From Sphingobacteriaceae bacterium (GTDB lineage: Bacteria; Bacteroidota; Bacteroidia; B-17B0; Aurantibacillaceae), in NCBI GenBank assembly GCA_023251695.1, contig JAHEYE010000026.1, positions 1-33,835 on the forward strand: a DNA stretch of 33,835 bases. The letters run 5' to 3'. Of the stretch, positions 20,217 to 23,009 are shown piece by piece (the stretch's first letter is position 1; each line of letters starts with the position of its first letter). The notes beneath the pieces were generated by a model. That model had not been told where the DNA came from, did not search any database, and was given only the letters and a program-made list of their open reading frames with translations. A program made the translations under genes and the position numbers.

Positions 20217-21446
20217 ATGAAAAAACTTTTACTTTCTATTTTATCGATTGCTTCGTTAACTGCTTTTCCGCAGTGGCAAACAACAAGCATTTTTAGTACC
20301 GGCGATGATTGCTATTCGGCTTTTGGCAAAGCTTTCATTAGTGATGGCGGTTCAAGTTCCTTAGATGTATCAACAGATGATGGAGCAACCTGGTCGCCTT
20401 CAAATATCGGTGTACCTTCTTCCGGCTTATCTTTTGGTGATATTAATAGCGGAACAGTTTATGCCTATCGTAACACAAGTATTTATTCATCTACCACAGG
20501 TAATAACTGGACAGCCATGAATACAAGTGCAATTAACGCATCCGAAGTAATAAAGGATATTGCGGTAATCGGAACAAATTCTGTGTTTGCATGTACAAAT
20601 CCAATAAGCGGGAACGGGATTAAAATTTATCAGCTAAGCGGAACAACCTGGAATTTTAAAGCCAATGTTCCAACTGCAACCGCTCCACTTTCTTTATGTA
20701 TGAAAAACATGAATAGTGAGTTATGGATCGGAACCACAAGTACTTTGAGTATCAAATCTACCAATGGTGGTTCTACCTGGGCGGCTTGTAACGGTACTTT
20801 AACTTCAGCTAATTGGTGGGATAAATATGTTCTATGTTTAGGCGCTACAAGCACTACTTTATTTATGGGTACTTATGGCGGACGTTTAGTTAAATCAATG
20901 GATGGTGGAGGCACTTGGTCCGTTGGAATTAACATTAGCACAGGTAGCACTATTTCGATGAGTGATGTTTACGTAATGAGCGCAACCAATATTCTTGTGG
21001 CATGCGATTCCGGATTTTATTACAGCAATAATGGTGGTTCTTCATTTCAAAAAGATAACACCGGATTATCAGCTGCAAATAAATATCTGACAAAAATCAC
21101 TGCAACCTCAAATTATATTATTGCTTCAACCGGTAACGGTGTAATTGTCCGCAGACCATTAAATCAGATTTTCTCCGGTATAAAAGAATTTAATCCGCTT
21201 GTTATTGAAAGCAAAGTCTATCCGAATCCCTCCAACGATTTCACAACCATCGAGGCAAGTGATCTGATGTTTGATAAAAATTGCGAAGTAAAAATAACAG
21301 ATGTATTAGGCCGCGAAATTTTAGTATCAGAAATGAAAAACGGAAAAACACAAATTAATTTAAGCAGTTTTGCTAAAGGAATATATACTTACAGCGTTTA
21401 CAATAATAATACAGTTGTAAGCAAAGGGAAATTAGTGGTGAATTAA
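20217..21446 (+). CDS. T9SS-secreted Asp-box/YCF48-like beta-propeller protein (paralog 1)
   Basis: Signal peptide; Asp-box-like motifs STDDGATW, STNGGSTW, SMDGGGTW, SNNGGSSF; C-terminal 'KVYPNPSND...FAKGIYTYSVYNNNTVVSKGKLVVN' type A sorting domain. Confidence 0.9.
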   Translation: MKKLLLSILSIASLTAFPQWQTTSIFSTGDDCYSAFGKAFISDGGSSSLDVSTDDGATWSPSNIGVPSSGLSFGDINSGTVYAYRNTSIYSSTTGNNWTAMNTSAINASEVIKDIAVIGTNSVFACTNPISGNGIKIYQLSGTTWNFKANVPTATAPLSLCMKNMNSELWIGTTSTLSIKSTNGGSTWAACNGTLTSANWWDKYVLCLGATSTTLFMGTYGGRLVKSMDGGGTWSVGINISTGSTISMSDVYVMSATNILVACDSGFYYSNNGGSSFQKDNTGLSAANKYLTKITATSNYIIASTGNGVIVRRPLNQIFSGIKEFNPLVIESKVYPNPSNDFTTIEASDLMFDKNCEVKITDVLGREILVSEMKNGKTQINLSSFAKGIYTYSVYNNNTVVSKGKLVVN

Positions 21447-21520
21447 TCCTCACGGGAACCTCACTTCACCTCACCCGTCTGCCTTTGGCAGACACCCTTT
21501 CCTGCAAGGAGAGGAGGATT
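21445..21520. repeat. ~76-bp structured intergenic element
   Basis: Terminal 7-bp inverted repeat AATCCTC (21445-21451)/GAGGATT (21514-21520) enclosing hairpin GTCTGCC-ttt-GGCAGAC (21477-21493) and TCCT-gca-AGGA. Confidence 0.6.
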
Positions 21521-21533
21521 TATGATTCTAAAG

Positions 21534-21560
21534 AGCCGCTTCAGTTGAAGGGGCTTTTTA
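21534..21560 (+). terminator. Terminator of paralog 1
   Basis: AGCCgCTTCA-gt-TGAAGgGGCT followed by TTTTTATTTT. Confidence 0.75.
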
Positions 21561-21619
21561 TTTTATAGACAGAAAGTTATTAAAGTCCCTTTAATTGATG
21601 TTAATGAAGGATGAGTAAA

Positions 21620-21650
21620 CTTGTGTCTTTGGATATTTATTCTACATTTG
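21620..21650 (+). promoter_or_regulatory. Candidate promoter CTTG-N19-TACATTTG of paralog 2
   Basis: -33 CTTG 21620-21623, -7 TACATTTG 21643-21650, 20 nt before ATG 21671. Confidence 0.6.
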
Positions 21651-21670
21651 TTTAACAATAATAAATCCGT

Positions 21671-22912
21671 ATGAGAAAAATTTTATTTTACAGTCTGTCA
21701 GTTGTGTCATTAACTGCTTTTTCACAGTGGACATCAACATCAATTCTTAGCTCAGGTGAAGATTGTTATAGTGTATTTGGAAAGGTTCTGGCAAGCGATG
21801 CTACCTCAAGTGCACTTGCTGCTTCAACCGACGAGGGAGTAACGTGGCCTTCTTCTAATATTGGTGTTCCGGCTTCCGGTCTGTCTTTTGGTGCTACTAA
21901 TGGCGGAACCGTTTATGCATACCGTAATAAATCAATCTACCAATCTACCACAGGAAATAACTGGACGGCTATGACAACAACTGCTATTGCAGCAACTGAA
22001 GTTATCAAAGACATTGCTGTTATTAGTACTAACTCTGTATTCGCCTGTACTAATCCCATTAGTGGTAACGGAATAAAAATTTATCAGTTAAGTGGTTCGA
22101 ATTGGGCGTATAAAGCAAGTGTGCCTACTTCAACCGCACCACTATCGGTATGTATGGAAAACATGAATGGCGAATTGTGGATCGGAACAACTTCAACTGT
22201 AAGTATCAAATCAACAAATGGAGGAACTACATGGTCTAAAGCAAATGGAACTTATTCACCATCGGTTTGGTGGGATAAATATATTTTCTGCATGGCTTCA
22301 AACACAACAAGTCTGCTGATGGGAAATTACGGCGGTTTATTGTTAAGATCTACGAATAGCGGAGCATCGTGGAATACGGTGTATAATATCAGTGGCACGT
22401 CTTCGATTGGTATCAATGATATATATGTAATTAGTAGCAACGACATAATTGTGGGTTGTGATTCCGGGTTTATATATAGTAATAATGGTGGAATAAGTTT
22501 TTCAAAAAACAATTTAGGTTTTACTTATTCAGCCGGGGTTCTACAGGATCAGATAGCAAAAGTCACGGCAAGTACTAACTATCTTTTTGCAGCAACAAAA
22601 AATGGAAAAATTTACCGGAGAGCTAAAACAGGTGTATTTACAGATGTGAAAGATATTTCATCTTTGAATATTGAAAGCAAAGTATATCCGAATCCTTCAA
22701 ATGATTACACAACCATTGAAGCAAATGATTTGATGTTTGATAAAAATTGCGAAGTAAAAATAACAGATGTATTAGGCCGCGAAATTTCAACAGCAGAAAT
22801 GAAAAACGGAAAAGCTAACCTAAACGTAAATAATTTCGCAAAGGGAATTTATACCTATAGCGTTTACAATAACAATTCAGTGGTAAGTAAAGGTAAATTG
22901 GTGGTGAATTAG
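21671..22912 (+). CDS. T9SS-secreted Asp-box/YCF48-like beta-propeller protein (paralog 2)
   Basis: Collinear with paralog 1 over its full length, same motifs and sorting domain. Confidence 0.9.
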   Translation: MRKILFYSLSVVSLTAFSQWTSTSILSSGEDCYSVFGKVLASDATSSALAASTDEGVTWPSSNIGVPASGLSFGATNGGTVYAYRNKSIYQSTTGNNWTAMTTTAIAATEVIKDIAVISTNSVFACTNPISGNGIKIYQLSGSNWAYKASVPTSTAPLSVCMENMNGELWIGTTSTVSIKSTNGGTTWSKANGTYSPSVWWDKYIFCMASNTTSLLMGNYGGLLLRSTNSGASWNTVYNISGTSSIGINDIYVISSNDIIVGCDSGFIYSNNGGISFSKNNLGFTYSAGVLQDQIAKVTASTNYLFAATKNGKIYRRAKTGVFTDVKDISSLNIESKVYPNPSNDYTTIEANDLMFDKNCEVKITDVLGREISTAEMKNGKANLNVNNFAKGIYTYSVYNNNSVVSKGKLVVN

Positions 22913-22951: not shown

Positions 22952-22982
22952 AAAAAGCCGTTTCAATTGAAGCGGCTTTTTT
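22952..22982. terminator. Bidirectional-type terminator between paralog 2 and tonB
   Basis: AAAAAGCCGTTTCA-AT-TGAAGCGGCTTTTTT (one G-T wobble). Confidence 0.85.
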
Positions 22983-23009
22983 ATTGTTTGGTAGTTGAGC
23001 TTGTCGAAA

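Follow-up and report, generated by a model that had tools for sequence, protein, structure and literature searches.

Two tandem genes of a Sphingobacteriaceae bacterium, A and B, are identical over 57 nt inside their C-terminal sorting domains (CTDs), while the bodies of the same genes are saturated at synonymous sites. Short-tract gene conversion between A and B inside the sorting domain is the best explanation of this pattern and very probably the right one. Judging by the genes compared, homogenisation centred on the CTD is also present at several further T9SS cargo clusters of this organism and its relatives, affecting a minority of loci.

Genes A and B and their genome

The window, i.e. 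the whole stretch of DNA analysed, comprises 33,835 nt of the forward strand of contig JAHEYE010000026.1 (assembly GCA_023251695.1, Sphingobacteriaceae bacterium; Aurantibacillaceae). The source genome, G000, is a MAG of 366 contigs, 84% complete with 4% contamination. Its CTD gene set consisted of 152 genes from 100 contigs plus the window; further, clustered CTD genes were taken from the congeners G006 and G002 and from G011, which belongs to another genus of the same family. Each of the T9SS genomes examined contains at least 150 genes with the same sorting domain at the end. A profile search of G000 revealed SprA (TIGR04189) in two pieces scoring 1567 and 867 bits against a cut-off of 200, and by this component the genome was classed as encoding T9SS machinery. 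This translocon gene is split over two contig ends, L220/L221 (G000 C346:20-4081 and C334:2-3208). A scan for genomes of the same species returned the G2 genome only (JAGNIU010000001.1, a Bacteroidia MAG).

A and B are predicted from their sequences to be T9SS cargo exported to the surface (Table 1). The sorting domain of A matches Por_Secre_tail PF18962 with an E-value of 1.3e-13 and TIGR04183 with 4.1e-13. Por_Secre_tail scores of 51.5 (A) and 48.9 bits (B) exceed the curated cut-off of 27 and identify a type A sorting domain; the TIGR04183 scores are 49.1 and 43.9, respectively, with a cut-off of 23. In itself this domain is an ordinary member of Por_Secre_tail, and the novelty lies in its mode of evolution. 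The bodies of both proteins are likely, rather than proven, propellers: BNR matches are under the Pfam cut-off, GH74 and Ycf48 propellers are matched by profile, and an AlphaFold model built from three sequences is all-beta but weak (pLDDT 58), its best PDB matches being propellers with low TM-scores.

The two proteins are 66% identical and their DNA ~70%. Homology extends from ~40 nt 5′ of the start codon to the stop codon, and the resulting direct repeats are spaced 1.47 kb. A similar hairpin with a T-run (AAAGCCG...CGGCTTTTT) is located 3′ of both genes, at window positions 21531-21566 and 22958-22990 (coordinates by eye). These elements look like intrinsic terminators and also match one another inverted.

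Table 1. Positions of genes A and B and of the compared segments in the window
Feature	Position	Strand	Evidence
Gene A, predicted T9SS cargo: signal peptide, BNR/Asp-box propeller-like body, C-terminal sorting domain; 409 aa	20217..21446	+	ORF, PF18962, TIGR04183, profile similarity to GH74/Ycf48 propellers
Gene B, tandem paralog of A with the same architecture; 413 aa	21671..22912	+	ORF, PF18962 8e-13, BNR 2.7e-5, 66% aa identity
A, propeller stretch of 33 codons (32 residues same as B, 22 synonymous differences)	20544..20642	+	codon alignment
B, counterpart of the 33-codon propeller stretch	21998..22096	+	
A, sorting domain (CTD), approximate limits	21213..21443	+	PF18962 match 21216-21437
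B, sorting domain (CTD), approximate limits	22679..22909	+	PF18962 match 22682-22903
A, 57-nt identical core of the putative converted tract	21265..21321	+	nucleotide alignment
B, 57-nt identical core of the putative converted tract	22731..22787	+	nucleotide alignment
A, 20-nt identical run shortly 3′ of the core; core and run make up 26 codons with pS 0.00	21328..21347	+	
B, counterpart of the 20-nt run	22794..22813	+	

Divergence of A and B

The initial annotation set a propeller stretch, in which 22 of the 32 codons for identical residues differ synonymously, against a 57-nt block without differences; both figures are exact on recount. The block is the maximal identical run of the two genes, and the second-longest run is that of 20 nt. 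The body as a whole has a pS of 0.71 and a dS of ~2.3, in agreement with the old, synonymously saturated duplication that had been proposed, "old" being a relative term. Within the CTD, the first 21 codons have a pS of 0.57, the following 26 of 0.00 and the final 32 of 0.76. The sharp synonymous drop is confined to the CTD, as had been proposed, but occupies only ~26 of its ~79 codons. Silent divergence between the paralogs falls locally between diverged flanks, the pattern by which gene conversion is recognized. Over the same 26 codons pS is 0.76 for A–G2, 0.78 for B–G2, 0.74 for A–G6, 0.73 for B–G6 and 0.53 for the tandem pair of G3.

The A/B locus, adjoining ExbD/TonB-like genes, is conserved in congeners, with a single copy in G2, G6 and G4 and a tandem pair in G3. 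In trees the two genes of each tandem pair group together, A with B and likewise those of G3; the A/B duplication therefore appears to have occurred on its own species' lineage, independently of that in G3. An ancestral tandem pair common to G3 was considered and rejected, the trees favouring separate duplications; support for the A+B grouping is weak (58/78 for DNA, 78/91 for protein), and some alternatives are not rejected. A tree of the CTD core speaks against a grouping of A and G2 that excludes B (delta lnL 12.9, p-AU 0.046); the propeller DNA tree does not reject this grouping (p-AU 0.175). Since it is also weakly rejected in the protein propeller tree (p-AU 0.043), topology does not separate the tract from the body. 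A and B are weakly sister outside the tract too, and the contrast between their pS of 0 within it and the values to orthologs is therefore a conflict of rates without one of topology.

CTD homogenisation at other T9SS cargo loci

We surveyed 140 pairs with homologous bodies from the first three genomes (G000, G006, G002). A generally low synonymous divergence of CTDs was rejected as an explanation, the CTD being lower in only 75 of the 140 pairs (P=0.59). The four strongest runs are all located within the CTD or extend across it (the CTD shares multiply to ~0.002). They comprise 91 informative codons in the C278 tandem pair, 61 in G006 C24, 33 in C344/C246 and 22 in the pair of the window. Body and CTD pS are 0.61 and 0.00 for C278, and 0.65 and 0.15 for G006 C24. 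C344/C246 represents a CTD exchange across different contigs of G000, which may be neighbours. In G011, three tandem pairs have body/CTD pS of 0.59/0.25, 0.60/0.26 and 0.72/0.43; among these three, one has a run-test P of 0.0015, another of 0.007 and another of 0.09. A four-gene T9SS cargo array on contig C5 of G002 (L200:2585-11304) has uniformly lowered CTD divergence (pS 0.25-0.41 vs 0.38-0.65 for the body); a similar array of ~700-aa genes in G006 (L180) is without such lowering.

A CTD drop of more than 0.2 was found at 6 of 29 tandem loci vs 4 of 108 dispersed pairs (Fisher P=0.006). Averaging per locus leaves no significant tandem excess (P=0.08; 0.19 when the dispersed pairs are matched for identity). 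Without a significant mean shift across the full set, a subset of loci is affected, and the drop is absent from most tandem pairs, including the orthologous G3 pair.

In the C278 pair of G000, ~430 nt are near-identical (L080:3973-4404 vs L080:5305-5736), spanning the CTD, the stop codon, the intergenic spacer and the initial codons of the gene that follows. This looks like array expansion or contraction by unequal exchange rather than a short internal conversion, with a third copy possibly lost. An orphan gene start lies after the second gene of the pair and suggests such a loss.

CTD sharing also extends to neighbours with unrelated bodies. In G002 C60 an SBBP propeller gene and a Laminin_G_3 (LamG) gene have CTDs that are 88% identical, with pS 0.30. 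The similarity of these genes (L213:1965-3635 and L213:3788-5131) begins at the VYPNP motif. In G006 the CTD and linker of the LamG gene have a relative at 81%; on this sequence comparison the LamG gene is, weakly, the likelier donor and the SBBP gene the likelier recipient. Among non-homologous adjacent CTD genes, the CTDs are more alike than expected in G000 and G002 (P=5e-5 each, with a few pairs accounting for the effect), while no excess was detected among those of G006 (P=0.14). An opposite pattern was observed in G006, where tandem genes L188:1283-2947 and L188:3167-4822 have bodies 81% identical in protein but share only 38% identity in the CTD, as would result from the replacement of one CTD.

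Alternative origins of the identical block

The initial annotation, besides gene conversion in the CTD, suggested that the genome-wide pool of sorting domains may have taken part. Conversion between A and B is supported, while the pool found no support for this pair. An origin of the segment of both copies in a third CTD gene, or in another strain via transfer, is improbable, even though each genome offers more than 150 CTD genes and CTD sharing between unrelated bodies is known elsewhere, in G002 C60. BLASTN of the CTD against the genome, as well as a pattern search of the genome with 31 nt of the block allowing 3 mismatches, returned only A and B above chance level; at least 150 CTDs of the genome were scored, and no third gene in the assembly, which is incomplete, resembles the block. 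In addition, the CTDs of both A and B keep the family-specific sequence of the orthologs in G2, G6, G3 and G4. With no other donor in the genome and CTDs of the ortholog type retained, the exchange was most likely between A and B.

It is quite improbable that two saturated genes acquired this run of identical codons by chance. In favour of chance, the block had been singled out by eye and is made of favourable codon families, log10 P of its 18 codons given the residues being only -4.3 for a fixed start. The longest run of identical informative codons has a P of 5e-5 by permutation, the floor for 20,000 permutations. In whole-gene simulations with amino-acid-specific rates of codon identity, estimated from other comparisons in the genus, P was ~8e-5 when residue changes were skipped and 1.2e-4 under the strict rule. 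A null that takes its calibration from the A/B pair itself is more conservative; run over the 140 pairs, it gave P=0.0005. Bonferroni correction over the 140 surveyed pairs yields ~0.01-0.02 for the residue-specific simulation and ~0.07 for the pair-calibrated null. These run tests, which for A/B concern a single short tract, are close relatives of GENECONV; CTDs are better conserved in protein and identical runs start from a higher level there, which conditioning on the residue partly handles. No comparable run was found in five other pairs of the same family (A–G2, B–G2, G2–G6, G3_B–G2 and the G3 tandem), and other CTD pairs contain far longer tracts.

Preservation of the 57 nt by constraint on the nucleotides themselves, such as an RNA structure, a regulatory element or codon bias, is very improbable. 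Whereas the block sits in the better conserved domain and includes codons (GAA, AAA, GAT) that are as a rule conserved whatever the comparison, 73-78% of the synonymous sites of the tract differ between A or B and the G2 and G6 orthologs. Equal identity of the block in orthologs, named in the initial annotation as speaking against conversion, was thus not observed, and the ortholog comparison refutes nucleotide constraint within the genus. Synonymous divergence of CTD and body is, moreover, equal on average across the 140 pairs (0.685 vs 0.696, Wilcoxon P=0.59).

An assembly or read-mapping artefact of the MAG is very unlikely as well: assemblies in 366 contigs do fail at repeats, and the ~430-nt tract of C278 is more exposed to this than the A/B block, but 57 nt with flanks less than 80% identical should be far too short for read cross-mapping, misjoins at a repeat would swap flanks and not create identity, and the same pattern is present in G006, G002 and G011, all less fragmented.

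Discussion

Gene conversion between A and B would have proceeded as follows. Tandem duplication of a gene for a T9SS-exported propeller-like surface protein would have been followed by saturation of synonymous sites in the body. Later, one copy would have overwritten at least 57 nt, and up to ~83 nt, of the sorting domain of the other through non-reciprocal homologous recombination between direct repeats without crossover, probably by a RecA-type enzymatic route. An internal tract between two diverged flanks requires a two-sided exchange; neither a single unequal crossover nor a recent duplication would leave such an arrangement. Recombination probably started where purifying selection on the docking signal had kept the DNA most alike. 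The sorting domain would be the likeliest site, because both copies must dock to one export and attachment machinery and this part stays most similar. Such a process would be self-reinforcing, as every event restores identity. The divergence pattern, the run statistics, the lack of nucleotide constraint and the recurrence are demonstrated; the enzymatic route, the direction and date of the event, its possible selective benefit and a favouring of common tags are matters that we infer.

T9SS cargo genes with near-identical segments exchanged or common within a genome have their closest described precedent in Porphyromonas gingivalis, where domain rearrangement and recombination of rgpA, kgp and hagA have been described and gene conversion was invoked in discussion (PMC5266723). 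That case turns on exchange among strains and on repeated, shuffled adhesin (CAD/DUF2436) modules; in A/B and the other clusters, the tract is in the sorting domain, the genes are tandem or clustered and the passenger bodies have diverged. Concerted evolution by gene conversion of bacterial repeated genes such as rRNA operons (PMC6002687, PMC8022953) is likewise a non-reciprocal homogenisation of paralogous DNA in one genome. The homogenisation of A and B, unlike that of rRNA operons, is restricted to one domain of protein-coding paralogs, the remainder being saturated. The literature searched was open access, with most subscription journals outside it, and contained nothing relevant to CTD-limited conversion in T9SS cargo besides PMC5266723. 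Gene conversion is a known kind of process, and its limitation to the sorting signal among T9SS cargo neighbours is undescribed in that literature. Recurrence across two genera makes the pattern more than a curiosity.

To our knowledge, how unrelated proteins acquire and keep a T9SS sorting domain is poorly documented. We tentatively suggest that in Bacteroidia with very large T9SS repertoires the CTD may be a locally recombining cassette, of which neighbours, even those with unrelated passengers, repeatedly copy segments, and that new cargo could be recruited by tagging. If so, conversion limited to the tag would provide a simple route to acquiring and keeping a sorting domain, and neighbouring exported proteins could diverge in their working parts and still carry one tag in common. 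CTD trees would then be unusable for inferring cargo history, and CTD repeats may cause contig breaks in T9SS genomes.
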